Assembly: GCF_963169125.1 (NCBI RefSeq)
Contig: NC_084801.1
Coordinates: 117,269,061-117,333,060, forward strand
DNA: 64,000 nucleotides
Origin: Humulus lupulus
Lineage: Eukaryota > Streptophyta > Magnoliopsida > Rosales > Cannabaceae
Reading direction: 5' to 3'
Under the pieces are notes generated by a model, which saw nothing but the letters and a program-made list of their open reading frames with translations, was not told where the DNA came from and did not search any database. Made by a program: the position numbers and the translations under genes. Position 1 is the first letter of the stretch. Each line of letters starts with the position of its first letter. This document shows positions 2,399 to 58,095 of the stretch, in pieces.

Positions 2399-4700
2399 AT
2401 GGTGGTTACTCGTTCGAGATATTGTAACGAGGTGGATCAACATGATGGGCAGGAGGCCCACCATGCCGCCATATCCGATGAACAAAACCCCGAGATCAGC
2501 GCCTTGGCCGCCAAATCTGAACCCAGATTTCCTGATGGCGATAGAGATGGAGAACATACAGTTGAGGAGTTAGCTATCCAGAGCAAACAAGCAAATCGAA
2601 GAAGTCTTGGCCCAGTAACCCCCTCTTACAACCAACGCTAACGTCAGAAATAGGCAAAGTAAGACTCATAAGTCCTGCCGGGATAACCGGTCCAGGCCCA
2701 GCCAATCAGTTAGAGCCTCGACTCCGAGTTCTACCCCCACATCACAACACCACCAGGAAACTGTGTTTGAGGAGTTTCCTAGGGCCAATCAGCAATTCAG
2801 CCGATCAGTCTGAACCTCAACTCCTAGCTCGATTCCACCATCAAATGCACCCAGAAGGGCCCGAGGCAGCTTGCGGAGGAGATCTGGTGAGGGCTCGCGA
2901 AGAAAGCCTACTCTGGCCAGCCATCCTGCACCACGGTCAGATCACCGAGCGCAGGATGCAAGGGATGATAGAATGGAGCAGCTGCGACCTAACTTGATCT
3001 GCCCGGACGGGACTAGGATCGCGTCACCAATTAGGCATCCCCCGTCGCCAATAAGATATCCATCTCCTCTCCGTTCAGTTCAGGAAATTTCGGCTCATGG
3101 GAGCAGTAGGAGAAATCCTCCTTCCGTCGGTCCTTCCCATCACAGCCGAGCGCGCGGGGAAGTCTCGGATCCTCACCCTCAGCAGCGGGCTCTGAGCTTT
3201 TCAAACGGGAGTTACTGGACCGGGAGCCACCGAAGTGGCAGATCCGGTGAAGACCTGCGCAATCGCTTGAGTTCGGTGCAAAGCCTTCGGGCTACCTCGA
3301 GGGCCGACCTTCGAGATCGCCTCAACTCATAGAGGGGAGATCCGGATAGAAATGGTAATCATGGTCACCAAGGGGATGGTCTTTGGGAAGTACGTCAGAG
3401 TGGGAGTGTCCCACCTAAAGCTCAAGCTTGGAGGGACAATAACCTGCCTAACGCTTACAATGGAACTAGAGCTGTTGAACAGCCCCAGAACAACCAAGGA
3501 AGTAAGGATCAAACCCTAGAGAGTTTAGCTCAGATGGAGGAGCTGATGAAGAAGTTCTTGTCAGATAAGGAAAAAGACGAATACGACTCGGGGGATGAAC
3601 TCGAGCTCTTCGCCCCCAGCATAGCAGCCTCAACGTATCCACTGGGTTTTCGGATGCCCTACTTGTCTAAGTTCGATGGAGACGGAGACCTGTCGGATCA
3701 TTTGGGTATGTTCAACACCCTGATGATGGCCCACAACATTGGCCCCGATCTAAGGTGTTTGATATTCCCTTCCACCTTGACTAGGTCGTCCAAGAAATGG
3801 TTCAAGCAGTGTAAAAAGCAGTCCTTCAGCTCGTGGAAGAGTTTTTCTGCCAACTTCAAGAGGGCGTTCCGAGCTTCTCAAGTCGTCTGCGTCAAAGCTA
3901 ACACCCTGGCGAATGTGAAGTAGAAGCCCGGGGAACCTTTGAAAGCTTACTTGGGCAGGTTCGCAAACGTCGTGGCTCGAGCTAGGGACGCGAACGACAG
4001 TTCCAAGCTTATGACCTTGAGGACTGGAATCCTCGTTGGTGGTTGGCTATGGAAAGAGATACAGAGAAGAGGTGTCAGCACCGTAGATGAATTCCTGAAC
4101 AAGGCCCAAGAATGGATAAACTTGGAAGATACGCCAGCGTCGGTCGCTGGAACCAGCTAAGCCCCTGATCAGCCCGTTGGAGTGGGAACGGATGTCGTGA
4201 AAATGACTCAAACCGTTACACAGAATAACCAAGGGGGTGGAGGCAAGAGAAAAGGGAGTAGCGAGGGTGGCTAGCACGGTCCGAAGAATAACAAGCCCTT
4301 GGAAAAATTTAAGCCAGTCTACGCAAGTTATACTAAGCTTACAAACACTAGGGAACACATTTTCCTAGCCAACTCTGCCCTCCCCTGGAAGAAGCTAGAG
4401 CCTTTGAAGCACCAGAAGGCCAAGAGGGACCCTTCCAAGTTCTGTCGATTCCACAAGGACATTGGCCACAACACTGATGATTGTAGTCATTTAAAGGATG
4501 AGATCGAGACACTCATCAGAGCCGGACCTTTGGCTCAATACGCGCGAAATAGAGTTCCTACCAGTCAGCCAGCCCCAGAAGCTCCGATAAATCAACCCGG
4601 GCCCTGGATAAATCAAGATACCCCTCCTCCTATGATAGGGGGAGAGATATCCATAATCTCGGGTGGCCCCCATTTGGCCGACATGAGCAGAGGTGCCTAG
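2399..4700 (+). pseudogene. Element B gag (broken)
   Basis: Starts at the ATG at 2399 (MVVTRSRYCNEV), 55 bp after the LTR. An N-terminal low-complexity region runs to about 3500, with frame changes. The conserved capsid-like part starts near 3534 (LSKFDGDGDLSDHLGMFNT; WFKQ) and runs through 4160. A zinc knuckle CRFHKDIGHNTDDC lies near 4441-4482, of the C-x2-H-type spacing seen in Tat gag. Stops at about 3921, 4158, 4273 and 4698 interrupt it. Aligned with the uninterrupted flanking reading, most are TAG where CAG (Gln) is expected. Gag would form the particle and bind RNA. Confidence 0.85.
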
Positions 4701-4703
4701 AAG

Positions 4704-5290
4704 AGATATGTCAATGAATTGAAGGCTCATAACAGAGTGGAATTCGTCCTGGAGCAGCATCTACCAAAACAGCAACGACTGGAGAGGCAACCGATCATCT
4801 TTACCGAGGAAGATGCTAGTCACGTCCAGTTCCCCCATAACGATCCTCTGGTCATAACTGCCCAGCTCGCCAACAAGAGAGTTAGGAGGATACTGATCGA
4901 TAATGGGAGTTTGGTGAACCTGTTGTTTTGGTCTACGCTGGAGAAGATGGGGTTATCCGTCACCGAGTTGAAGGCCACCTCCATGATGTTGTATGGATTT
5001 TCTGGAGAAGAGTTGGTAGCGATAGGAACAATCGAGCTGGTTATTACCGTGGGAGAGGGGCCCCGGACTGTCTCTAAGCTCCTCGAATTCATGGTCATCG
5101 ATTGTCCCGCCGCCTACAACGCTATTCTGGGTCGGCCTACATTGATAGAATTTGAGGCCATAACTTCCATCCGCCATCTCGCAGTCAAATTCCCATCCTC
5201 CACGGGGATATGCACGGTCCGAGGTGATCAACTCGCTTCCAGGGAATGCTATAGCATTTCCATGAAGGGAAAGTCACGACCCAGGTAGTA
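4704..5290 (+). pseudogene. Element B aspartic protease region
   Basis: Continues the gag frame after the TAG at 4698. The active-site motif is ILIDNGSLVNLLF near 4890-4930; DNGS rather than DSG or DTG is common in Tat elements. A second protease landmark, AYNAILGRPTL, lies near 5114-5146. The frame ends with tandem TAG TAG at about 5286-5291. The product would process the Gag-Pol polyprotein. Confidence 0.85.
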
Positions 5291-5379
5291 GACGATGACC
5301 ATTCAAGGCGGGGATGAGGAATCTCAGGAAGTAGGGCCTATTCCAGAGATAGAAAAACCTTAGAATGCCAATGGGGAGG

Positions 5380-7330
5380 GTATCATCTTGAATGATGATA
5401 TCGACCCTAGGATAGGCGAAGATAGATCCGAGCTCCAGGCCATCGAAGAGCTTGAGGAGGTGAGCATCGACCCACAAGACCCCTCGAAGGTGGTGAAGCT
5501 CGGAAAAAACTTGTATAGTAGAAGGAAGATGGAGCTGCTGATATTTTTACGAGAGAATCTAGATGTGTTTGCCTGGTCCCATGAGGACATGATAGGGATC
5601 AGCCCGGGCGTCATCCTGCACACCCTCAACTTGAACAAGAACGTGCCGGCGAAGTCCCAGAAACAAAGGCGCTTGGGCACGACCCAAGCTGAGGCCCTAG
5701 AGGAGGAAGAAGCCCGACTCTTGAAGTGCGGCTTTATTCGCGAGGCAAAGTACCCGATCTGGGTCGCCAATCCTGTTTTGGCCCCGAAGCCCAATGGGAA
5801 GTGGTGGACCTGCATCAACTTTTCTGATCTGAATAAAGCTTGCCCCAAAGATTGCTTCCCTTTTCCAAGGATTGGTCAATTGGTAGATGCCACGGCAGGG
5901 CACGAGCTCTTGTCCTTTATGGATGCATACTCAGGCTATAACCAGATCTCCATGAACCCGGCGGACCAGGAGCACACTAGCTTCATGACCCCAACTAACG
6001 TTTATTGCTACAAGGTCATGTTGTTTGGGCTGAAAAATGCAGGAGCTACATACCAGAGGTTGGTCAACAAGATGTTTACTAATCAGATCGGGAAAAACAT
6101 GGAAGTGTACATTGACGACATGTTGGTCAAGTCAAAGACTGCCAATAACCATGTCTCTGATCTGGAGGAATATTTTAAGATTTTAAGAGAGTAAGACATG
6201 AGGTTAAATCCCCAAAAGTGCACTTTTGGGGTTGTGTTAGGAAAGTTTCTGGGTTTCATAGTCAACACCAGAGGAATAGAGGCGAACCCCGATAAAATCA
6301 GGTCGCTACTCGAGATGCCCTCGCCCCGGTTATGAAAAGACGTCCAAAGTCTGACAGGAAGGGTGGCAGCCCTTAATCGGTTCATTTCCAAATCTACCGA
6401 CAAGTGTTTGCCATTCTACAACTTGCTCCAGGGAAATAAAAAATTCGAGTGGACCGAAGAATGCAAACGTACCTTCCTCGACCTGAAAGCACATTTAGCC
6501 GAGTCGCCCGTGTTGTCCAAGCCAACAGCAGGAGAGCCTCTTTTCCTTTACCTGGCCGTCACGGAAGATGTGGCTAGCGCAATACTGGTCCAGGAAGAAG
6601 ACCGGTCTCAGAAGCTAGTCTATTACATTAGCAAGAGGCTTCTCAAAGATGAATCCCGATACCTGTTGATGGAAAAAATGGCTTTCTGCCTTATTACGGC
6701 CTCCCGAAAGCTCAGGCTGTATTTCTAGTCCCATTCAATCCACGTCATAACCGATCAACCTTTAAGGCAGGTTTTGCAAAAACCTGAGGCATCGGGGCGT
6801 CTGTTGAAATGGGCTATCGAGCTCAGCCAATTTGAGATATTGTACGTGCCGCGAACTGCAGTGAAAAGCCAAGCTCTGACTGATTTTGTGGCAGAGTGCA
6901 CGGGATTCCGAGAAGAACCAGTGGAAGAACCGGTTCGAGCCTCGTGGAAAGTCTTTGTAGATGGCTCGTCTAACTAGAATGGATCCGGAGCTGGAATCAT
7001 CTTGATATCCCTAGAAGGGCATCGTTTCCACTCTGCGTTGCGATTCGGATTCAAAGCATCCAACAAGGAGGTCGAATACGAAGCTTTGTTGGCTGGGCTA
7101 AGGGTGGCCCAGGAGCTGAAGGCCAGCTCCGTCCAGTGCTACAGCGATTCCCAACTCGTGGTAAACCAAGTATCAGGAGAATACCAAGCGTGGGGAACCA
7201 AGATGGCTGCTTACCTGGCCAAGGTAAAGGAGCTGTCCGCATTTGAGCACGGCCTAATTGAACAGATACCTCGGGAGCAGAATACCAATGCTGACACCCT
7301 GGCAAAGCTCAACTTTGGGCCTGGTACCGG
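5380..7330 (+). pseudogene. Element B reverse transcriptase, RNase H and archaeal-type RNase H
   Basis: RT begins near 5388; landmarks are PNGKWWTCINFSDLNKACPKD (5791-5853), FMDAYSGYNQI (5917-5949), FGLKNAGATYQRLV (6025-6066) and the intact active site YIDDM at 6108-6122. The first RNase H lies at about 6360-6900 (LYLAVTED, VYYISKRLL). A second, archaeal-type RNase H lies at about 6945-7310 (FVDGSSN; EYEALLAGLRVAQ; YSDSQLVVNQV), the hallmark of the Tat lineage. Stops near 5361, 6192, 6333, 6726 and 6975 break the frame. Four of these five fit single C-to-T changes (Gln or Arg codon to stop); I did not resolve the fifth. Confidence 0.9.
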
Positions 7331-8633
7331 TAGAATTCTTGGAAATACCAAGCATAGAGGAAGCCGGGGCGGAGGTCGAGATGATCGACACCAGGCCGAC
7401 CTGGATGACTCCCATAATCCAATACCTCACAACAGGGAAGTTACCCGAGGAGCGAAACGACGCGAGGAGGGTACTTTACCAGGCTTCGAGGTATATAATG
7501 TTAGATGGGACATTGTACCGGCGTGGCCTCTTTTTACCTCTTCTGTGGTGTGTTCTGCCAGGTGAAGCGAAAACCATTCTGTAGGAGGTGCATGAGGGAT
7601 TTTGTGGAGATCACGCTGGGGGCAAAACCTGGCCTTGAAGGTGTTGAGGCAAGGTTATTATTGGCCCACTCTATCGAAGGACTAGATCTCTTATGTCAAA
7701 AAGTGCGACAGGTGCCAACGGTTCGCCAAGGTCGCCCGAGCCCCTCCAGTCGAGCTAAAGATGATCTCGTCCCCGTGGCCATTCGCGGTCTGGGAGATTG
7801 ATTTAGTTGGTGTCCTTCCCACGGGAAAGGGAGCTCGCTATGTTGTGGTGGCTATAGACTACTTCACAAAATGGGCAGAAGTAGAAGCCCTGGCGACGAT
7901 TACTTCAAAGAGGGTCCTCGACTTCGTGGTCAAGAGTATTGTCTGCCGATTCGGGCTGCCAAAGAGGATCGTGTCAGATAACGGAACACAGTTTGATAGC
8001 GATCTCTTCACCGAATTTTGTGAGAGGCACGAAATAGTTAAAAGCTTCTCCTCCGTGGCCTACCCCCAGGCTAATGGAAAGGTCGAGGCTATGAACAAGA
8101 CACTAAAAGCGAGCCTTAAGAAGAGGTTGGATGAAGCCAAGGGAGTTTGGCCCGAACAGCTCCCCCAGGTGCTGTGGGCATACCAGACCTCGCATCGAAC
8201 TTCGACGGGTCACACTCCTTTCTCCTTGGCTTTCAGGAGTGAGGTCGTCCTTCCTATCGAAACAAAGATAGCCTCGCATAGAGTCCGGACATTTGACTAA
8301 GACCAGAACGGTAAATTGCTCTGCGCGTCCCTCAACCTAATTGACGAAAAACGAGAAGCTTCACAGCTGCAGCTCGTGCATTATCAGCAGAAGATCACTC
8401 GTTATTTCAACTCAAAGGTCAAGAAATGCAACTTTAGCGTAGGTGACCTGGTGCTCTGAAGAGTCTTCTTAGCCGGTAAGGATCCCAAGGACGGAGTTTT
8501 GGGACCAAATTGGGAAGGACCCTATCAAATAATAGAGGTTGTGAAAGAAGGAACCTTTAAACTAGCTCGGCTTAATGGAGAAGCAGTCCCACGGACTTGG
8601 AACGCTGTACATCTGAAGAAATATTATCAGTAA
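7331..8633 (+). pseudogene. Element B integrase
   Basis: A frameshift near 7260-7320 leads into the linker (IDTRPTWMTPI) and then YIMLDGTLYRRG at about 7493. The zinc-binding N-terminus spans about 7585-7720 in broken frames (EVHEGFCGDHAGG; CDRCQRFA). The core starts near 7761. The catalytic triad is complete: D in AIDYFTKW (about 7857), D in SDNGTQF (about 7977) and E in GKVEAMN (about 8085), with 35 residues between the last two. Stops lie at 8298 and 8458. The C-terminal region has LGPNWEGPYQI and ends YYQ-stop at 8631-8633. No chromodomain, as expected for Tat. Confidence 0.9.
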
Positions 8634-13062: not shown

Positions 13063-13807
13063 TGTACGCCCTAAATTTCCGCGAGCTATTGGCGAGCTGG
13101 AAAAAGGCCTAATTCGATCTACCACATGTAAATCGTCCACCCGAAGCTGTTATTACGGGTTTCCACCTGTCCAGTCTGAGCTGATTAGAGAGTTAGCAGT
13201 TCACTCGAAGGCAGCGGGTTAGCAGTATGGATATCACGAGCTGTCACTACATCAACCTCGTGATGCGGCATAGGTCTGACACCCGAACCTTTGTAAAGAC
13301 AACCACGAAATGTAAATGTGCATATATCAGACATCACATGTCTGTTCCATTCCTGAATTCTCGGGCACGCAGTATAAACGTTCGTATTTAGACATCCCAC
13401 GACTGGTTTGGGCCATGTGGCCCATTATCTCTCCTTACCTATTGATTAGATCACACTTCACTGCCATTAGGAATTAATCATCAGTGTCACAGAGATGACG
13501 TGAGGGGTGAAGAGGTCACGGGATGACCCCCTTGCCAACCCAGGTATCCTCTCCCTATAAATACCAAGACCCTGGGCATTGCAAGGGGTTGGCATATTAT
13601 TGTAAAGAAACACTTTGTAAGAAATGGTCAAGAGATATCAATAATATCGACTGGTGGACTAGAGGGATTTTAACCTTCGAACCACCTAAAAAGAAAGGAG
13701 TGATCACCTTCTAGAATTAAACTATTTTCATATTACGGATCACTATTTAGCACTAATCCATCCTATTTATTCGTATAATTACCTGTTGGCAAAGAACCGC
13801 GTCAACA
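13063..13807 (+). repeat. 3' LTR of element B
   Basis: TGTACGCCC ... CGTCAACA, 745 bp, paired with 1582-2344. Internal TATA-like CCCTATAAATACC at about 13553-13565. It lacks about 20-25 bp present near the end of the 5' copy. Confidence 0.92.
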
Positions 13808-13812
13808 AGGTT
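13808..13812. repeat. Target-site duplication AGGTT, right copy
   Basis: Identical to 1577-1581; the element A RNase H reading resumes immediately (VNQIIGEYQARG). Confidence 0.92.
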
Positions 13813-15306
13813 AATCAAATTATTGGGGAATATCAAGCCCGGGGTCTTAAGATGGTTGCTTATTTGAATAAAGCAAATGACTTATTGGCACAATTCGAAA
13901 AGTATACTCTCCAGAAAGTACCTCGTGATCAGAATTCAAATGATGATGCTTTGGCCAAGTTAGCAAGCGCGAAAGATGTTGACACCTTAAACATAGTACC
14001 AGTTGAGCATTTGTTCGCACCAAGCATTCAGGAAGAAGAGTCTTCCCTGGTAATCCAAACGACAGATACATGGATGATGCCCTTCATTAAATACCTAGAG
14101 GAAGGAGTGCTGCCGGCGGACAAAAATAAAGCAAGAACCCTCCAGAGGCAATCAACTCAATTCATTCTGATTGATGGAGTTTTATATAGGAGAGGGTACT
14201 CGTTGCCACTTTTAAGGTGTGTTTCAAAGGAAAAGGCCAAGGAATTAATGTGATAATTCCATGAAGGTTTCTATGAAGATCATGCTAGGGAGTAGAGTTT
14301 ATCAAAAAAGATCATAAGGCAAGGATACTTCTGGCCTACAATGAATGAGGACTCTGTGGATTTTGTTTGGAAATGTGAAAAGTTCCAAAGGCTCTCAAGG
14401 ATACCACGAGCATCCCCTAATGAGCTCAAAAAAATGCAAAGCCCGTGGCCATTCTCAGTATGGGGGATAGATTTGATCGGGTCTTTACCCACAGGAAAAG
14501 GCAATGTCAAGTATGCAGTAGTTGTTGTTGACTACTTTACAAAGTGGATCGAGGCTGAGCCACTTGCAACAATAACGACCAAGAAGGTGTTAGATTTTGT
14601 GGTCAAGAACATCGTGTGTCGGTATGGGTTGCCAAGAAAGATTGTTTCAGATAATGGCACACAATTTGACAGTGACCTGTTCACAGATTTTTGCGAGAGG
14701 CATGGGATTATCAAGATTTTTTCATCGATAGCTCATCCGCAAGCAAATGGACAGGTTGAAGCCGTCAAAAAAACCCTGAAAGACACCCTAAAGAAAAGGC
14801 TTGAAGAAGCAAAGGGGGCATGACCAGAATAGCTACCAGAAGTCCTTTGGTCGTATAAAACGTCCCATCAAACAACAACAGGCCATACTCCATTTTCTTT
14901 GGCCTATGGATATGAAACCATGTTGCCTATTGAATTATACTCGCCATCACATAGAAGGTTGGCATACGATCAGAGTACTAATAGTCAGTTATTGATGGAA
15001 TCTTTGGATTTGGTCGATGAAAGGCGTGAGCAAGCTCAACTCCGAGTAGCAGCTTACCAACAAAAGGTCGCTCAGTATTTCAACTCTAAAGTGCGTGAAA
15101 GAAAATTTAACGTGAGAGATTTGGTACTTAGAAGAGTTTTTCTGAACACCCGCGATCAACCTGCCGGAGTGCTGGGACCTAACTGTGAGGGTCCATATCA
15201 AATTGAAGAAGTCCTCCAACCAGGCACTTATAAACTTGCTCGCTTGAATGGAGATCTCATTCCTCGCTATTGGAATGGAGAACACCTACGCAAGTATTAT
15301 CAATAA
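13813..15306 (+). pseudogene. Element A pol, 3' part: RNase H end and integrase
   Basis: Continues the archaeal-type RNase H (VNQIIGEYQARGLKM; QNSNDDALAKL) directly from 1581. Integrase: linker TTDTWMMPFIKYL, LIDGVLYRRGYSLP (about 14167-14208), broken zinc-binding region, then the core at about 14430-14820. The triad is complete: D in VVDYFTKW (about 14530), D in SDNGTQF (about 14650) and E in GQVEAV (about 14758), with 35 residues between the last two. A stop at about 14821 (TGA) and a frame change near 14830-14900 precede the C-terminus (NTRDQPAGVLGPNCEGPYQI). Ends HLRKYYQ-stop at 15304-15306, matching the end of element B pol. Confidence 0.9.
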
Positions 15307-26104: not shown

Positions 26105-26453
26105 CACTACGCCAAATAGTACCTATAGCGCCGTTCACTATGAACCGACGCTATTGATAATCTAGGTCAATAGCATAGGTTTAAAACTAACTCTATTTTT
26201 AACGAACATCATCTGTTACTAAACCGACATTGTACAGGAGCTTCAATAGCGTCGGTTCATAACCGACGCTTCTATTAAAATGAAACGTTGCATTTCATTA
26301 TTTGTAATGATAGCATCGGTTAAGAACCAACGCATCTGACCTAAATGACGTCGGTTTATGCTTAATAGCATCGGTTCTAAACCGACGCTAAAATTGATAT
26401 AGGAAAAAATTTGGGATCGTCTCCCTCATTCCATCCCGATCCCCTGAAACTAA
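26105..26453. mobile_element. Terminus of a third CACTA element (outermost of the nest)
   Basis: Begins CACTACGCCAAATAGT and is rich in subterminal repeats AGCGTCGGTT and AACCGACGCT in both orientations, typical of CACTA ends. The 5'-flank trinucleotide is CTA. No matching ...GGCGTAGTG end was found. Its interior is interrupted at 26454 by the next CACTA and probably resumes at 33508, being lost near the LTR of element C at about 34890. Confidence 0.7.
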
Positions 26454-27199
26454 TACAACAAGAATTAAGGCTATTAGCAGCGGGAAGGTCCACCCACTAC
26501 AAGAAATCTAATCTTTACCTACTAATATTTTACCTACCAATATATATTGGTAGGGAAAGTAGGGTTTTGCCTACCAATATTTATTGGTAGATAATATTAG
26601 TAGGTAAATGCTAGGTCATAATATTATATTTCGGAGCATAACTTTACCTACCAATAATATCAGTAGGTAATGATTTTTAACTACGTATATTATGGAGGGA
26701 AATTTTTTAACCATTCCACCTCAATTTTCCCCCCATTTTTTATTTTCATTATATTATTTTATTATTATAAATGCTTATTTGGAAGCTTATGTGATGTAAA
26801 TAATATGATGTGTACACAATGTATAATATGTGGCATGCCACGTGTGTACATAGTTGGAAAAAATATAAATAACATATATTTGAGTATTTATTTCAGCCAC
26901 ACACAAGATGATTTTAATTTAAATAAAAAAGAAATTGTGTATTAGGTATTAGAATTTTTGTAATTAAATAAATAAGAAAATTTGTAAATAAAAAAAAATC
27001 TGAAACATAAAGGGTCCGTTCGGTAACTCTCAAAAAAATGGTTTTTTAGTTTTTTAATTAAAAATCTGAAAATAAAGTTAGGAAATACGTTCGGTAATTC
27101 AATTTCATTTTTTATTTTTTTAATATAAAATCAAAATTAATTAAATTTTGAAAACATAAATTTGAAGCTTTTAAAAAAAAATTAAATCGTATTTTCATT

Positions 27200-27870
27200 T
27201 GTTCCCTCATATTTTCATTTGTTCTCTTTCCTTTTTTTTCCTTGTTCTCTCTCTCATTCGATTGGGTGATCTCTCTCCCTCGACTCGTCTCCATCGAAGC
27301 GGCGGTCGCAACCTCTGTTCTCTCCGGTAAGCGTTGTTAATAACCCCCCTCTCTACAGCTCTATCTCGCATGGCAGCCCCTGAATTGTTCATCTTCTTTT
27401 GCCTCAATTTTGGTTTATCTATTATTAGTAGTGTTATCCTTTTCGATCTTTGATTCTTCCACAATTTTATTGTATTTTTTTTTCTTTTCTTGTTAAGAAA
27501 TATAAAAGTTGTTGTTGGTTGTGGTTTATGGGTTTTTCTTCTTTGATTCAGGTTCTCTATTTTTTTTCTGTTTTGATTCTTCCCCGAAGCCGTCCGCCTC
27601 TTGCACTTTCTGGTGAGATTCCGACTAGCCCGAGCCTCTAGTTTGAAGAAGGGCACGGGGAAGAGGTGTGGGTCTGGGCTCGTGGTCTTCCTCGTCTCAG
27701 ATGCGGGCTCAATGGCGAGGATGGGGATCTACGTACGTTGTGGGGGCTTTGGGGAACAGCTGGGTTTGATCTCTCTCTCCCACTTACACTCACGGTAACT
27801 CACCTCTCTCCCATGGTATCTCTCTGTGTTGTTATATGTAAATATGATATATATATATGTATATATTGCT
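27200..27870 (+). other. GC-richer leader-like segment, possibly a third captured fragment
   Basis: CT-rich then GC-rich sequence with donor-like CCG|GTAAGCG near 27328 and several open frames below 100 codons on both strands. It looks like a 5' UTR and first-intron region of a housekeeping gene, but I cannot assign a protein. It could be the promoter/leader of either captured gene or of a third source. Confidence 0.35.
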
Positions 27871-27904
27871 GCTGAAAGTAATATAGTTGATAGCATAAAA
27901 ATTA

Positions 27905-28965
27905 GAGTTCTTGCTATTACAGGGTCTCTGCATCATATCGACAAAGACCTTCTCGGGTGGTGGTTGTGTGAGCGGCAAGTCAAATCTGGAGGTCTTAATG
28001 GGCGCCCAGAGACACTTCCAGATGTATGTAGAATTCTTATTTAAAAAGAAATTGCTTTGTTTCTTTTTTATAAGATACATTTAGAGCCCTGCATCTTGGA
28101 CCTCTACTTATTCATTGAATCATTTGAGCTAGTCTCAAGTGGCAAAAGAAACAAATATTTGTTAAAGCCTATTGAATTAGTTTTCTTAACTAGGTCTGCT
28201 ATTCATGGTGGGTCCTTTCTAGCCTGATCATGATTGACAGAGTACATTGGATTAACAAGGAAAAACTTGTGAAGTTCATCTTAGACTGCCAGGTAATCTT
28301 ATAACTATGCAAAGTACTCTTATCTTTCAGATCATCATGTTGGGAACAGGGACATTTTCACTCTTACCTCTAAGGATTTTGGTTAATTTTTGTAATCTCA
28401 GGATGTAGAAAATGGAGGAATTTCAGATAACCAGATGATGCAGTTGATGTCTACCACACATACTTTGGTGTAGCTGGTAAAATTACTTGAGTTCTTTCAT
28501 TTTCTTTTGAATTTGCATGCCGCCCTCTCTCTATGAAAGTTAACAGTCTAGGATGCATTGCATTTTGAAAGCATTTGTAATGCCAAAATTTCGGATTTAA
28601 CTATTTGTCCTCTATTATAAGTTATGTTCATAAAATTGGTACTATTTCATAGTTTAGGAAGGGTAAGATAATAGAGAGAGACACGTGGGGATAGTTGAGT
28701 AATCACTTCTATGGGTTTGCATTTTTTTTTTGTCTATGAAATTTTGAACGTAGGAATTTAGGAAACAGTGTAGTTATCTCTTTGGCTTGTGCCCTGAATT
28801 TCATTAGGTGCTAATTAAATGGTCTTTATGTTGCATTTTATTTTTATGACATGAAATATGGTTGATGCAGGACTTTCACTTCTTGAATATCCAGGATTGA
28901 AAGCCATAGATCCAGCCTATGCTTTGCCGGTTGATGTTGTAAATAGAATTTTCTTAGGCAAATAA
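27905..28965 (+). pseudogene. Captured 3' part of Rab geranylgeranyltransferase type-2 beta subunit gene
   Basis: Four consecutive exons with introns retained. Exon 1, about 27905-28023: [19 protein letters not shown]. Exon 2, 28194-28292: starts [19 protein letters not shown], exactly 33 codons. Exon 3, 28402-28476: begins DVENGGISDN, then has a 1-base deletion after GATAACC; the shifted frame reads DDAVDVYHTYFGVA. Exon 4, 28871-28965: [20 protein letters not shown] to a TAA stop, the natural C-terminus. All junctions are GT-AG. The YSWW and DDAVDVYHTYFG blocks belong to the prenyltransferase alpha-alpha barrel that, with the alpha subunit, adds geranylgeranyl groups to Rab GTPases. About the C-terminal third is present; the left edge is a capture junction, not a start codon. 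Retained introns show DNA-level capture. Not a functional enzyme. Confidence 0.9.
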
Positions 28966-29117
28966 TGATCCTGAAGAACAACTTATGATTCTAATTATAA
29001 CTGAACTCATTGTTTTCTCTTTTATAGGAAATAAAGAAAATAATATATCTTTATATTGAAGTAGAAATATATTGTTAAAGGGATAATGCTTTGGACATTG
29101 TTTTGAATCAAATGCAG

Positions 29118-29539
29118 TCTCGTGATCGTGGTCATTTGAATATGCCAGCTGATGAAAGAGAAAAGAGACACCAGCATAATTTCATGCATGTAACAACTCA
29201 TACATCTCAAGAATGGGCTGCAACCTTTGTTAGGTATGCTCATATATAGAATTAGCATGTATGATTTATAGATAATGAAACCTTCTCAATGTGGAGATTG
29301 ACATGTATTCTAGGATTTCAAATTTCACTTCTGTTCTAAGAAGGAAAAATATTTATCTGTTCATACCAGCTAGTGTTTCTTTTTCTGGCTTTATTCTAAT
29401 CTAGTGTCATTTTTTGTTTCTCCATTTCAGTGAACTTAATGATACTATTGTGGAAGCTCAACTGAGGACTAGGCAAGTTCCACCTCTACTTCCTATAAAA
29501 GAAGCCGTTGATCACTATTTGGAATCCAATAATAGATGA
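29118..29539 (+). pseudogene. Captured internal fragment of a class I trehalose-6-phosphate synthase gene
   Basis: Two exons in the same orientation as the Rab fragment and about 150 bp downstream. Exon 29118-29233: NMPADEREKRHQHNFMHVTT then HTSQEWAATFV, ending AG|GTATGC. Exon 29431-29539: after TTTCAG, ELNDTIVEAQLRTRQVPPLL and EAVDHYLESNNR, then TGA. This matches the end of the glycosyltransferase-20 domain of TPS1-like proteins (glucose-6-phosphate plus UDP-glucose to trehalose-6-phosphate), near the junction to the phosphatase-like domain. In the full protein the chain continues past SNNR, so the TGA at 29537 marks the capture boundary. Both coding exons are open. Recognition is from memory of the family. 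Confidence 0.82.
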
Positions 29540-29837
29540 TTCTTAGTTTATTTACATTAATTTACTAAGGAATGGAATGAACTTTATGAAGTTTTTTTTA
29601 TTTTGGTAGGGGTAACCTTAAAATGATAACTTTATGACTTATTTTAGTATTGAACATTATAAAGAATTTTAACATTAAACATTTTATTATTGAATGGTTT
29701 TTTTCTAGTTTATTTCTAATATATAACATTTATAAATAACTGCTATTATCTTTTACCTACACATAACTATTAAATTTGAACAAAATATAAATTATGTAAC
29801 AAACCAATAAAATAATGCTATGCGGGCTAATAAAATG

Positions 29838-29950
29838 ACACCACGTAGGATGCCACATATGATGCCACGTAGGATGCCACATATGATGCCACGTCATCAG
29901 ACACACAAAACTACAAAAACCATGTCAGCATACACGTAGGATGCCATGTC
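29838..29950. repeat. Short direct repeats of GATGCCACGTAG / GATGCCACATAT
   Basis: Alternating ATGCCACGTAGG and ATGCCACATATG units, at least two 24-bp cycles, inside the right part of the Pack-CACTA. Confidence 0.75.
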
Positions 29951-30461
29951 ATCAAACACGTCATTTGATGACTCATCAATTGATTTATAACTTAGTGGGG
30001 TCCATTGATTCTTTTACCTACCAGTGTTAATAAGTGTAGGTAAAGACTCTTTCCCCACTAACTTTTACCTACCAATCTCTACCAATTCAATATTGGTAGG
30101 TAAACCATATTACCCACCATTAGGCTAGTTTTACCTACACTTACAATTGGTAGGTAAAGACCCCATTTTCTTGTAGTGACCGCTAATACAGGTTAGGTTC
30201 GCTGCAAATTTGTATTAGTGGTGGGGCTCTGCTGTACCGCGAATTATTGGTCGGTAATAAGTATTATTAGCGGCGGACTGACACACCCACCGCTAATAAC
30301 ACATTATTACCAGCAGACAATAACAGCAGATCCCGTCGCTAATACCTGTGTCAGAGGCGACATTATTAGCCGCGGGGTCCACCGCTAATAATATTTTAAT
30401 TATATATTTAAATAAATAATTTTAAATTAATTAATATTTATTAAATTTAAATATTTTTAAG

Positions 30462-30820
30462 GGATAATTGCGGCATAAGTACCCAATGTTTGGGTTTTGT
30501 ACGCGGCATAGACCCAATGTTTATTTTAAGTGGCAAAAGTACCCAAAGTCAGTAAAACTGTAATTCCGTCAGTCTCCTCCGTTAGGCAGACACGTGTCAC
30601 GTTTTTATTGGTCCAAATCATAATTATTTTAAAAAATTATTGAGTTGGACCAATCACGAAGTGACACGTGTTGGTCCAGTCATCATGAAACGAAACCTAA
30701 CGGAGGAGGCTGACGGAATTACAGTTTTACTGACTTTGGGTACTTTTGCCACTAAAAATAAACATTGGGTCTATGCCGCGTAAAAAACCCAAACAATGGG
30801 TACTTATGCCGCAAATATCC
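30462..30820. mobile_element. Palindromic Mutator-like MITE
   Basis: Left end GGATAATTGCGGCATAAGT, right end the inverted copy (ACTTATGCCGCAAATATCC). Pairing extends through most of the 360 bp (GTCAGTAAAACTGTAATTCC against GGAATTACAGTTTTACTGAC; ACACGTGTCAC against GTGACACGTGT). The flanking ATATTTTTAA at 30451-30460 and 30821-30830 is a 9-10 bp target duplication, fitting Mutator-like elements. No coding capacity; inserted in the outer CACTA. Confidence 0.88.
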
Positions 30821-31039
30821 ATATTTTTAAAAATAATTCATAATAAATTTTAACAAAATAAACAATTAATTAATTCGAACATTAAAATTAATATATAATT
30901 TTAATATTTATCAAACTAGCTGATATCTCTATTGACATTAAAAATAAATACACTATTAATTTAATCAAAATACATAAACTATTAACTAAATAAAATCATT
31001 AAGGTTAATATTGTAATTATCCTCATCTTCAATATTTTG

Positions 31040-32435
31040 TTATGGCTGTGGCTGTGGTTGTGGCAGTGAGGGCGGTAGCTGTGTTTGTGGCGGTGAAGGA
31101 ATATAAGGTTGTTGTAAAGATTGTCCAAGCGTGAGGTCCCCAAACTAATCCCGAGACTGTGGCTGTATCAGGGTGGATAAAAAAGGTTGCTGCGACCCGC
31201 CCCCAAACTCACTATATCTAACATATGGCTGCTGGGACGAACCTCCAACCTCCCCATACCTAACATTAGGTAGTGGATGCTACATCGATCCTCCTTGAAA
31301 ATCGGTAATGTTAAAATATAGTGGAGGAGACTTGGAAGAGTGTCCAAACATGTACTGGTTTTGAAACTACAGAGGTTGTTGCGACAACAAATGTGGCGGA
31401 TACTGTGGAGGAGGCTGGTACTGCTGCTGTGGTGGTGTATGAAGGTCAGGATGGGCGGTGTTACTCTGAGAAGATGTACCACCTTCAGATTGTGATGACA
31501 AATTCCTCTGCAGAAAAATCTCAAACCGTGGGTCATACAGATTATTGGGTTGTTGAGGTACCACCATCTGAATCGTCTCATGCATTGCCTTCATCATGAG
31601 AACCATAGTAGTCATATCTTCATTAGGCGTAGGAGCAGTATGTGCTTGGGACTAACTTTGATCTGTAGAGCTGGAGGTTGTCTTTCTCACTTTCCCTTTC
31701 ACCCTATAACCCACTCCTCTTTGGCAGTCAGATCTCTCCCAGAGTACTTTACCTAGTATCTCGTCTTGATTGACCGGGGACAAATCGATGCCAGATACAT
31801 TACCAAACTCCTCACTCTACTGTTGAGACTGCCTATCAAGCTGTGACCTCTGAAGCTCCGCCGCCATTTTTTCATGTATAAAGAAAACATTATAAGCAAA
31901 AATTAGAAACATTAGAAACAAGAGAACAATAATATTTACTTTCATAATCTTGTTGAGCTGCCTCGTTGACATAAGTTTTTGTCGATTTTTTCATATGAAC
32001 ATCCCTCCAAGTATCAACAACATGCGCATATGGGTTCTCCTATACAAATGTAAACAAAATGTTTTAGAATGTATTATTTTTATAAAATTAAATTCACATC
32101 TTTTCTTACATATTCGTGACACTTAGCTGCGAATGATTTTGTGCCTTGTGTTGTTACATACTTCATTTGTTTTCTATTTGCTTAGTTTTTAGCGAAGCGA
32201 GCCAAAAATATTTCGCTAAAAAATAACTCACAAATATTCCTCCATGTCTCCTTAGTGCAATGACCGGTGGCTTAGAGAGGACATTCTCCCAATCTTCAGG
32301 TCCAACGTAATTATTTTTGAAGTGTTTATGTTTGATGTTCTTTCTCTCGCGATATCTTTTGCCCATTTCCTTATAGACAGTTGCTAGAACTGACTCACAT
32401 TGTGGATGACTGTCTATATTATAGTAATACTGCAT
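31040..32435 (-). pseudogene. Decayed CACTA transposase-associated protein (Ptta/En/Spm type)
   Basis: Minus-strand exon from about 32435: CESVLATVYKEMGKRYRERK and VGPEDWENVLSKP, then after a frame change CTKETWRNICELFFSEIFLA and TTQGTKSFAAKCHEYV (about 32255-32105). A second exon near 32045-31940 reads NPYAHVVDTWRDVHMKKSTK. A third, about 31860-31040, reads DEILGKVLWERSDCQRGVGY and ends in a Gln/Pro-rich tail (PPQQQYQPPPQYPPH). The W-x3-C-FF and GTKSFA-x2-HE pattern is that of the Ptta/En/Spm plant transposase family (PF03004 by recollection), the TNPA-like DNA-binding partner of CACTA transposases. Stops and frameshifts throughout. Confidence 0.75.
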
Positions 32436-33169
32436 TAAGAATTTTTTTTAGATGAATTTGTAAATAATGCAAATAAATAATGTAAAGAAAATGAATCCTC
32501 TTTATTCAATATTAAAAAAATACTATATTTTAGTTAATACTAAACCATCCATTATTATATTTTATAAATTAATTTAAATTATCACTTAAATTTTGATTTT
32601 CACCAAAACAGTCCTGTAATTATTTATATATTCCTATATATTTAATATATTTCCTCAATCTCATGCAAAACATGGGAACATTGTTCTAAGAATAAATACA
32701 TTTTCACTGAAATATGGTTTGTACACTTTGTAAAAATTAATTAATTCAGAAGCTAATCATGACTAAAAATTAATTAATTCTGTAAAAATAATTTAAAATA
32801 CATAAAATCGCCACATACCTTGTGCCAAGTTGAAGAATTTAGTCTTAGATATTTCTCTAAGGAGAAAATAGAGAGAGGGCATGGTGGGTGGGTGGGTGCC
32901 GTTGCCTTGCGCCTTAGATAGAAGAGAACGAAAGAGGGACGAATGAGCATAAATTCAAACTAAAAATTATTATAATAAAATTTGGTAAAATAATATTAGA
33001 AAACATACCTGGATTAAAGAGAGGAGAAGAGAAGATCCGCCGTGGTGGGTGCCGTTGCCTTGCGTCTAAGAGAGAAGACCTGCTGCATTAAAATTTGAAG
33101 AGAGGAGAAGAGAACAAGAGATGGGCGGGCGAGGGGTTATGATAAAATTTGAACATACTCAAGAGCATT

Positions 33170-33504
33170 AGTGGCGAGACCCGCTGGTATTAGTATTCTC
33201 CCGCCACTAATAATAGTATTAGCGGTGGATAGTTCACCTCTACTAAAGGTGATTATCCGCCGCTAATAAACTTTTTAAACAAACCCCTTCGTTTCCTGGG
33301 CATTTCATCTAGTGTATTAGCAGAGCACTACCTGCCGCTAATAATGGTAAGTACGCCGCTAATATATATTATTATATTTTTTTTAAAATAATCACACATT
33401 ATTAGCGGCAGACCCCCTATTTCGCCGCTAATACTCTGTACAATACCGGCGGACTGAGTCCACTGCTAATAGTTACGCCACAAATGGCATTAATTCTTGT
33501 AGTG
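33170..33504. repeat. Right subterminal repeat array of the outer CACTA
   Basis: Repeated GCCGCTAATA and TATTAGCGG in both orientations, ending TTCTTGTAGTG; the left counterpart is 30179-30400 (displaced by the Pack-CACTA). Confidence 0.8.
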
Positions 33505-33507
33505 TAA

Positions 33508-54750: not shown

Positions 54751-57700
54751 GTGTTCACTTTGACCCAAACAGAGGTCGAGGCTAGTCCCTTGGTGGTTAT
54801 AGGCCAGCTTTGTATTGCTGGAACCTTTTATACTTTTCTTATTGACTCGGGTGCTACGCACTGCTTTGTTGCTAGTAGGATTATAAATGGGTTGTGTAGA
54901 CCTTGTGAGTTCTTTTCTGTGGGGTTTGGTACGGTATTGCCTATTGGAGAGTTAGTGGTATACAGGAGATGGATTAGGTCACTACCAGTTATGGTGGACG
55001 GCAGGGAGTTGTCAGTTGACTTGGTGGAGTTAGAGATGACTGATTTCAACATAATTCTTGGTATGGATTGGCTGAAGAAGTATGGGGCATCGATAGAATG
55101 TAAGAAGAAGATGGTAACTTTTGAGCTAGAGGGTGAAGATCCCTTCCTTTTTGTTGGCGCCATGCATGGACCTTGTATACCTATGATATCAGTACTTAGA
55201 GCAAGAGACCAGTTGCAGGGAGGATGCATAGGGTTCTTAGATAGTGTGTTGGACACCACTCAGGTCATGCCAGTGGGACCAGAACAAACTCGGCTAGTTT
55301 GTGAATTTCTGGATGTGTTTCCAGAGGACTTGATAGGGTTACCTCCACAAAGGGAGATTGAGTTGGCACCGGGGATAGAGCCATTGTCTAGGGCACCATA
55401 CAGAATGGCTCCAGCGGAGCTGAAGGAACTGATGGTTCAACTATAGGAGTTACTGGACTTGGTTTTATCAGGCCCAGTTTCTCGCGATGGGGTGGACCGG
55501 TTCTCTTCTTGAAGAAGAAGGATGGTTCTCTGAGGATGTGCATTGACTACAGGGAACTGAATCAGTTGACTATCAAGAACAGATATCCTCTGCCAAGGAT
55601 TGGTGATTTGTTTGACCAGTTACAGGGTAAAACAGTATTCTCTAAGATAGATCTTCGATCTGGTTATCACCAGCTGAGGATCAAGGAGGAAGATATACCG
55701 AAGACAACTTTTCGTCCCAGGTACGGACATTATGAGTTTTTGGTTATGTCATTTGGATTGACTAATGCCTCGGCAGAATTTATGGGTTTGATGAACAGAG
55801 TGTTCAAGGACTACCTGGATCAGTTTCTGATTGTCTTTATCAACGATATATTGATATACTCTTGGACGGAAGCAGAGCACGAGCATCATCTTATGTTGGT
55901 ATTATAGAGGTTAAGAGAGCACAGGCTGTATGCGAAGTTCAAGAAGTGTGAGTTTTGGTTGCCACAGGTGACTTTCTTGGGTCACATAGTCAGTAAAGAT
56001 GGTATTAAGGTGGATCAAGTGAAGGTTGAAGTAGTAAGAGATTGTCAAAGACTGAAGAATGCTTCAGAGATCAGGAGTTTCTTGGGTTTGGCAGGTTATT
56101 ATAGGCGCTTTGTGGAAAGGTTATCCATGGTTGCATCATCATTGACAGAGTTGACACACAAGAATCAGAAATTTATTTGGTCGGACAATTGTGAAGACAG
56201 TTTTCAGAAGCTCAAGGAGAGTTTGATCACCACACCAGTTTTGAGCCTTCCTACAGATCAGGGCAAGTTTTTGGTTTACTGTGACACTTCGAGGTAGGGT
56301 CTGGGTTGTGTACTTATGTAGGCAGGAAAGGTCATTGCTTATGCATCACGTCAGTTGAAAGATTATGAGCAAAGATACCCCACGCATGATTTAGAGTTGG
56401 CAGCAGTTTTTTTTGCACTAAAGGTGTGGCGGCACTACCTGTATGGTGAGAAGTGTGAGATATACATTGATCACAAGAGTTTGAAGTACTTTTTCACTCA
56501 GAAGGATCTGAACATGAGGCAGAGACGTTGGTTGGAACTAGTAAAGGATTATGATTATGGGATCCTCTATCGCCCTAGAAAGGCCAACGTGGTAGCAGAT
56601 GCCTTGAGCTGAAAGGGACCGGGACAGTTGTATAGTGTCAGACAGATATCGAGGAAGTTGGCTGATGAGATGACTCGAGTGGGGATAGAGTTAGTGGTGG
56701 GCCGGTTGGCCAATATCACTTTACAGTCTATTCCCTTGGAGAGAATCAAGCAGAGACAGTTAGAGTATGGGTTTACTGAGGTATAAGGGTCGGATTTGTG
56801 TTCTGATGGACACTGAGATTAGACGAGAGATTCTGGATAAATCTCACACTACTCCGTATTCTCTTCATCCAGGCACCACAAAGATGTACCAAGACCTGAG
56901 AGTTTTATATTGGTTGTCTAGGATGAAGAGGGATGTGACAGAGTATGTAGCTAGGTGCCTGACCTGTCAGCAGGTCAAGGCTGGGCATCAGAGGCCGGCA
57001 GGACTATTACATCCTCTGAATGTCCTAGAGTGGAAGTGGGAAGATATCACGATGGATTGCGTGGTAGGTTTACCCAGGACAGTGGTCCAGCACGATTCTA
57101 TTTGGGTCATTGTCGATCGGGACACGAAATCAGCTCATTTTCTACCAGTGAGGATGAATTACACAGTTGACCAATATGCATATCTCTATGTGAGAAAGAT
57201 AGTTCGCCTTCATGGGACGCCGAGGTCTATCATGTCTGATAGGGACCCTATCTTTACTTCCAAGTTTTAGGGGAGTTTACAGAGGGCGATGGGTACACAG
57301 CTGAAGTTTAGCACAACTTATCATCCTTAGACTGATGGTCAGTTTGAGAGGACTATTCAAATATTGGAAGACATGCTGAATTTTGAAGGAACCTGGAGTA
57401 AGTTTTTGCCTTTGATAGAATTTTCTTATAACAACAGTTATCATTCTACCATCGAAATGGCACCTTATGAGATGTTGTATGGTAGGAAGTGTAGATCGCC
57501 CATTCATTGGGATGAGATGGGTGAGAGGAAATATCTGGGTCCGGATGCAGTTCAGAGGATCACTGAGGCTATCAAGAAGATTAAAGCTCGGATGCTCGCT
57601 TCTCAAAGTAGGCAAAAGAGTTATTATAATCTGAGGCAGAGGAATGTGGAATTTCAGGTGGGAGACTATGTCTTCCTTAGGGTTTCACCACTGAAAGGGG

Positions 57701-58095
57701 TGAAGAGGTTCGGGAAGAAGGGCAAGCTGAGCCCTAGGTTTGTGGGACCGTTTGAGATCTTGAAGAGGATCGGGCAAGTGGCCCAGGTTGGATTTACCCC
57801 CTGCACTGTCTAGTGTGCATAATGTATTCCATATTTCCATGCTAAGGAAGTATGTTCCATGCTAAGGAAGTATGTGTCAGATGAGACTCATGTACTAAGT
57901 TATGAGGATTTGAAATTGGAGACAGACTTGTCTTATGAAGAACAACCAATTTAGATTCTTGACAGGAAGGACAAGGTACTGTGGAACCAGACCATACCTT
58001 TAGTTAAGGTATTATGGAGGAACAGTAGGGTCAAGGAAGCCACCTGGGAGCTAGAGGCAGAGATGCGAGCTCAGTTTCTCGAGCTGTTCTGGTAA
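54751..58095 (+). pseudogene. Element F pol: protease, RT, RNase H, integrase, chromodomain (broken)
   Basis: Protease: FLIDSGATHCFVASRII near 54835-54885 and NIILGMDWL near 55048. [22 protein letters not shown] (near 55503), [20 protein letters not shown]; active site FINDILIYS at about 55836-55862, i.e. Asp to Asn at 55842, inactivating. RNase H: about 56265-56612 ([21 protein letters not shown]). Integrase: CLTCQQVKAGHQRPAG, first Asp in VIVDRDTKSAHF, second in SDRDPIF (about 57238), Glu in QFERTIQ (about 57343); stops at 57268 and 57330. C-terminus GPFEILKRIG, frameshifts near 57788 and at a 20-bp tandem duplication (57836-57875), then a chromodomain: YEEQPI, KVLWRNSRVKEATWELEAEM. TAA at 58093-58095. 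Confidence 0.9.
57836..57875 (+). repeat. 20-bp tandem duplication in pol
   Basis: Two adjacent copies of TCCATGCTAAGGAAGTATGT just before the chromodomain; adds a frameshift. Confidence 0.95.

Follow-up and report, generated by a model that had tools for sequence, protein, structure and literature searches.

A Pack-CACTA transposon family of hop carrying DNA of a Rab geranylgeranyltransferase beta gene and part of a trehalose-6-phosphate synthase gene

CACTA transposons that carry fragments of host genes are already known, according to the available text of four reports (PMC1947982, PMC8903248, PMC5105172, PMC8978399). Tgm-Express1, a soybean CACTA element with five gene fragments, is inserted in the intron of a gene that is expressed, and is spliced along with that gene (available text of PMC1947982). 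Pack-CACTA elements are described from Arabidopsis, rice and maize (PMC8903248), CACTA-captured genes from wheat 3B (PMC4290129), and in the Tpn1 family of Ipomoea nil the interior is replaced by host genic DNA while the ends are conserved (PMC5105172). Here we describe a unit of this kind in hop, Humulus lupulus, at positions 26495-30178 of a 64,000-nucleotide stretch of contig NC_084801.1 (117,269,061 to 117,333,060, forward strand; this whole stretch is called the window). It carries parts of a Rab geranylgeranyltransferase beta gene (RGTB) and of a trehalose-6-phosphate synthase gene (TPS), and we consider it, with a probability of about 0.93, to belong to a non-autonomous Pack-CACTA family whose host-gene cargo is a neutral, silenced passenger.

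Like Tgm-Express1, the hop unit holds several unrelated host fragments with introns, but it lies in another transposon, and for the hop family, unlike Tgm-Express1 as described in the available text, donors and intermediates could be traced in one genome (one hop assembly was used throughout). The accessible part of PMC8903248 reports 5-nt target site duplications (TSDs) for its CACTA elements, compared to 3 nt for the hop unit, and, unlike those elements, several hop copies hold a whole nine-exon gene. The wheat 3B elements are similar in carrying genes and in repeating one gene across family copies, and 46% of those captures have structures judged likely functional; they average 488 bp of coding sequence (CDS) and 3 exons, compared to the whole nine-exon RGTB of hop sister elements, and their dN/dS, mostly 0.2-0.6, was taken against a distant homologue, whereas the hop values are copy against copy and neutral (wheat figures from the part of PMC4290129 available). 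The likeness to Tpn1 concerns another species, and in the available text of PMC5105172 it leaves the cargo aside. In the open-licence literature we found no report of transposon-captured RGTB and TPS, or of Pack-TYPE or CACTA elements of hop. As multi-gene Pack-CACTAs are already known, the hop family adds a well-traced case, whose value lies in the fullness of its record.

The TSD of the CACTA superfamily is 3 bp long, and the hop unit is flanked by the 3-bp TSD ACC outside a perfect 12-bp pair of terminal inverted repeats (TIRs), with ends CACTACAAGAAA at 26495 and TTTCTTGTAGTG at 30178, as in CACTA (En/Spm) elements. The subterminal inverted homology of the two ends scored 63 (maximum among 200 dinucleotide shuffles, 33), and the short repeats TTTACCTAC and GTAGGTAAA are found in both orientations near both ends, as is typical of CACTA subterminal regions. 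A Pfam scan of 10 open reading frame (ORF) pieces and three leader ORFs (the full ORF set, flanks included, numbers 93) found no transposase family and only weak unrelated matches. The initial annotation, made from the letters of the window, of a CACTA element with matching ends and no transposase agrees with these results. The parts of the unit are:

26492-26494: left copy of the TSD ACC
26495-26506, plus strand: left TIR
26495-27012, plus strand: 5' shell with the subterminal repeats, common to sister elements at 90-96%, partly over part of its length
27013-27583, plus strand: left-interior stretch, present among the fetched loci L009-L028 in L019 only
27584-27918, plus strand: leader module, whole or partial in 12 of the loci L009-L028
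27905-27918: leader/RGTB junction at the imperfect direct repeat GAGTTCTTGCTATT; sister L009 has about 1.59 kb here, including RGTB exons 1-5
27905-28023, plus strand: RGTB exon 6, first 15 nt missing, carrying K221T
28194-28292, plus strand: RGTB exon 7
28402-28476, plus strand: RGTB exon 8, frameshifted by the lack of one base
28871-28965, plus strand: RGTB exon 9, up to the native TAA
28966-29141, plus strand: RGTB 3' flanking DNA, donor homology extending to position 4445 of the reverse complement of L021
29135-29141: RGTB/TPS junction with the 7-bp microhomology TTTGAAT; L020 has about 1.86 kb extra here
29135-29233, plus strand: TPS exon, 5'-truncated
29431-29537, plus strand: TPS exon, 3'-truncated
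29534-29537: TPS/3' shell junction with the microhomology AGAT, where the TGA stop arises
29534-30178, plus strand: 3' shell
30167-30178, minus strand: right TIR
30179-30181: right copy of the TSD ACC

The RGTB part matched RabGGTB in the PDB (E = 2e-47) and Pfam PF00432 (1.3e-25), while the TPS part matched PF00982 at 9.9e-7, which is under the curated cut-off, and three hop TPS-like models at 96-99%. The best match in a first protein search with the RGTB part was from Momordica (82%, among the 120 matches listed, none of them from hop), and a joint search with both parts gave Humulus lupulus as the best match for each. Exons of both genes stand in one orientation, sense relative to the leader, and have kept GT-AG introns which are the same as those of the donor genes. 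The four RGTB exons up to a natural stop, as first annotated, are present with their native TAA, but exon 6 lacks its first 15 nt through an internal deletion; likewise the two TPS exons are real but cut at both ends, and the TGA in which they were said to end is 3'-end element sequence at the AGAT joint, where native TPS continues differently (AATAATAGAT followed by TGCTTATACTG), so that it was rejected as a natural TPS stop. Given the exon-6 deletion and the double truncation of TPS, the 1-base deletion in the third RGTB exon of the unit (exon 8, 75 nt here; the donor and 14 of 15 other copies have 76, and L016 has 72) is not, as had been supposed, the only defect. The peptide SRDRGH ahead of the TPS exon was tried as TPS or as a third gene and rejected, as it is RGTB 3' flank.

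Host-gene DNA of both kinds also exists outside the element. The RGTB donor (L021, C8:27.37 Mb) is an intact gene with nine exons, GT-AG introns and a 313-aa frame, it matches the element over the RGTB part only, and no exact TIR was found in the 9.0 kb fetched; the TPS donor (L047, C27:4.62 Mb) has native exons which extend past the captured part, and its match to the element is confined to TPS, the 3' shell being matched by the family copy L048 and not by L047. Introns are about 96% identical between element and donor, and flanks likewise; distance to the donor in introns and flanks is 3.4-4.4%, compared to a mean of 1.4-2.2% among copies. Entry of the exons as spliced cDNA, which would make the cargo a retrocopy, is refuted by these introns and flanks, and its chance is next to nil; the initial proposal of capture at the DNA level from two unrelated loci thus holds, with donors on different contigs and neither donor adjoining the other's fragment. 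It is hardly more credible that the two fragments stood side by side at a single host locus before capture and entered the element in one event: no point in support of this was found, no adjacent RGTB and TPS was seen outside CACTA ends in the assembly, and the parts are apart or otherwise joined in L020, L025 and L028. A second RGTB copy at C4:47917998-47967435 (L039, L040) is split over about 50 kb, 86-91% identical and apparently interrupted within an exon. A protein search with the RGTB N-terminus (57 of 57 candidates scored) otherwise hit only the fetched family loci or C10:63.21 Mb, some 10 kb past L024, and these last matches are taken as part of the L024 element.

The unit proved to be one of many, as the genome-wide search gave at least 44 matches, the window and the RGTB donor included; this and the other copy counts are lower bounds because the best 40 of 1668 candidates were scored. 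At least 11 further loci carry 27905-30178 (RGTB, TPS and 3' shell) at 96-98%. Twenty loci were fetched (L009-L028: 19 family loci and the RGTB donor L021), and, counting these together with the window, 15 have both exact TIRs in range, 14 of the 15 having a matching 3-bp TSD (of the two right ends of L011, the TSD-matching one was used); no exact pair was in range at L014, L016, L019, L021, L022 and L024. The TSDs differ between copies, as expected of a mobilised family. All nine RGTB exons, together with TPS, are found in eight elements (L009, L011-L014, L017, L018 and L020), exons 5-8 in L022, L023 and L026, while RGTB begins within exon 6 in L010, L015 and L016 and at the end of exon 4 in L019. 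In L020, L022, L023 and L026 an RGTB exon region is additionally present in a second copy and the TPS part is longer, while in L025 two RGTB pieces stand in reversed order and TPS is longer still. L024 shows TPS alone within the fetched DNA, L028 combines leader and TPS, lacks RGTB and has about 480 bp extra between TPS and the 3' end, and L027 has element ends without RGTB or TPS. Seventeen further loci match the 3' shell alone as a single block at 96-97%, among which L027 and L028 were examined. As a side observation, L016 (C1:226030200-226037700) is the best match among the fetched loci for the hop protein P0159, which has a PF17781 domain ahead of its RGTB part; this may be one more gene fragment, either captured or adjoining.

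Three junctions order these copies. The match is unbroken across the TPS/shell joint in 17 fetched loci and the window; all of these 18 also have the TGA in frame, and a search with the TPS exon (98 of 98 candidates scored) found it with the junction TGA at 18 loci, the window included. The TPS exon without this TGA was seen at 17 further loci besides the native gene (L028 and L048 were examined), apparently a second family branch without RGTB. All 12 elements that show the TTTGAAT junction read ACA at codon 221 of RGTB (K221T), and the donor reads AAA there, as do all 4 tested elements that lack this junction; among 220 fetched proteins this residue is K in 218 and T in two, both from hop. 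The leader/RGTB junction was found in the window copy only, among the fetched loci. These characters are nested, which suggests that the AGAT joint came first, then TTTGAAT with K221T, and then the deletion in the window copy. The shared part gave a star-like tree in which the window adjoins L019 (support 0.73). RGTB exons 1-5 were lost from the window copy by a deletion at the imperfect 14-bp repeat, and the RGTB 5' boundary was rejected as a capture breakpoint since sister elements run on into the whole gene. The window unit is a deletion derivative of the family; that it holds pieces of two genes was correctly seen, but not that it arose by simply joining two fragments, which are the product of later deletions.

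We looked for selection on the RGTB part, counting 232 private substitutions among 16 copies (a filter for a misaligned block in L014 removed no row of the count). The private coding changes were 60 non-synonymous, 6 stop and 21 synonymous, that is 66 of 87 non-synonymous or stop, where neutrality predicts a fraction of 0.76-0.78 (P = 0.61 with a flat and 0.90 with a spectrum-weighted expectation). Pooled dN/dS was 0.97 between copies (the eight nine-exon ones) and 0.11-0.46 between donor and copies, and the fixed differences between donor and family comprise 44 in introns and flanks and 6 in CDS, all six synonymous (Fisher P = 0.0004 for fixed against private coding changes). It follows that constraint acts on the donor branch and is absent from the copies. 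C to T changes per available site were 42/121 at CHG, 9/44 at CG and 48/724 at CHH, so that CHG sites show about five times the density of CHH sites, with CG intermediate (P = 8e-12 for CHG against CHH, from a rough Fisher table of hits against available sites). This is the pattern expected from transposon-type CHG methylation, a state that we infer for the copies.

Could some sister copies nevertheless be working mobile RGTB genes, giving useful gene dosage? In L018 the 313-aa frame is intact, all eight introns keep GT-AG borders, and the element has exact TIRs and the TSD TAA; L017 has an intact frame with only four residue changes. However, L017 has lost the intron-8 splice site, six of the eight nine-exon copies have stops or frameshifts, and the overall pattern is neutral. 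L018 is changed at ten residues, and one of these changes, D224N, lies in the LPDVC motif. D224 and C226 we take, from the rat enzyme, to be zinc ligands, so D224N is a probable loss of a zinc ligand, and on that ground L018 is kept only as a weak rival; we regard working mobile genes as very improbable. There is a small chance that, in some cultivar or haplotype, an L017- or L018-like copy is, or was until recently, the source of a Rab prenyltransferase subunit that either works or is dominant-negative.

The leader (27584-27918) is a third imported stretch besides RGTB and TPS. Its positions 27586-27732 encode 49 aa which are 92% identical to the hop gene model P0181, and the match stops at a donor-like site, GTACGT. 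Transcription from the leader could give a product with a cellular role, whether a chimera of RGTB and TPS, a chimera of leader and TPS, or small RNAs. RGTB exon 7 spliced straight to the TPS exon stays in frame, and over six hypothetical splice chains (using sites 27923, 27732 and 27794) the longest ATG frame is 95 aa. Hop gene models also use the cargo, as P0181 joins leader to TPS and P0137 (geranylgeranyl transferase beta 1-like) is a model of the sister L012 (C4:29511500-29518800), and the available text of PMC1947982 describes chimeric transcripts from Tgm-Express1. Against this, the RGTB ratio is neutral where an expressed chimeric gene should show coding selection, decay is CHG-biased, and the parts are separated by the frameshift and the stop of RGTB; among 252 fetched proteins none joins RGTB to TPS, and P0181 is the only one that joins leader to TPS. 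P0137 agrees with the L012 reading at 179 + 65 of 245 residues, the exception being at the model's skipped exon start, and ends directly before the L012 stop at codon 257. A small-RNA source is countered by the cargo being sense to the leader and by gene-derived inverted-repeat arms of at most 24 nt (among the 25 longest of 66). A cellular product is thus improbable, and the suggested RNA directed against two essential genes finds no support in a sense-oriented, neutral cargo with CHG-biased decay.

We therefore return to the neutral Pack-CACTA family. In this reading its members took up genomic DNA from two or more host genes, namely RGTB as a whole and TPS in part, plus the leader, perhaps by error-prone gap repair with template switching or by fusion of neighbouring insertions. 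A transposase acting in trans would have carried them to many sites, and internal deletions at short repeats shortened them again and again. One such shortened derivative, inserted into an older CACTA element, is the window copy; mobility would need the ends only, the gene parts being without visible coding or regulatory role. Several points weigh against this. L020 lacks a matching TSD despite its exact TIR pair; no autonomous partner turned up, although no search aimed at one was made; and the order of junction events is read from their presence and absence. No exact TIR occurs in the 5.0 kb fetched around L047, a weak test by itself because the family copy L048 shows none in 6 kb. Finally, the six synonymous fixed differences do not suit a long neutral stay inside the element before amplification, as zero fixed non-synonymous changes suggest that selection still acted on the captured version until a short time before the family amplified. 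The six differences would fit a diverged allele or paralogue having been captured just ahead of the burst, and hop heterozygosity is given as about 4.6-5.5% in the available text of PMC9930403.

The Pack-CACTA starts 41 bp inside the outer element, which has one degenerate end:

26454-33504, plus strand: second, older CACTA element enclosing the Pack-CACTA, ends TACAACAAGAATTA and TAATTCTTGTAGTG
26451-26453 and 33505-33507: TSD TAA of the outer element

Its end alignment scored 27 compared to a maximum of 24 among 300 shuffles, which taken alone is modest support. A transposase in this outer element was considered and rejected, as four ORF pieces scanned gave no transposase match and two weak unrelated ones. 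Within it, 30462-30820 is a MITE-like (miniature inverted-repeat transposable element) inverted repeat with 125-nt arms that are 96% complementary, and directly to the left of the outer element the motifs GCATCGGTT and AACCGACGC are repeated at 26143-26400, perhaps as another element's subterminal repeats. Elsewhere in the window, genes of long terminal repeat (LTR) retrotransposons lie at 4701-8300, 13690-15306 and 54751-57813; six of their ORFs, scanned in Pfam, matched reverse transcriptase or integrase, one having a weak aspartyl-protease match only.

The hop family offers an unusually full record, within a single genome, of how the cargo of a CACTA element changes, with both donors, whole-gene elements, intermediates and junctions at repeats of 4, 7 and about 14 bp, and growth and shrinkage of gene-carrying CACTA elements thereby becomes testable in hop. 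It also calls for caution in annotation, as the RGTB-like hop protein P0137 is a transposon copy.

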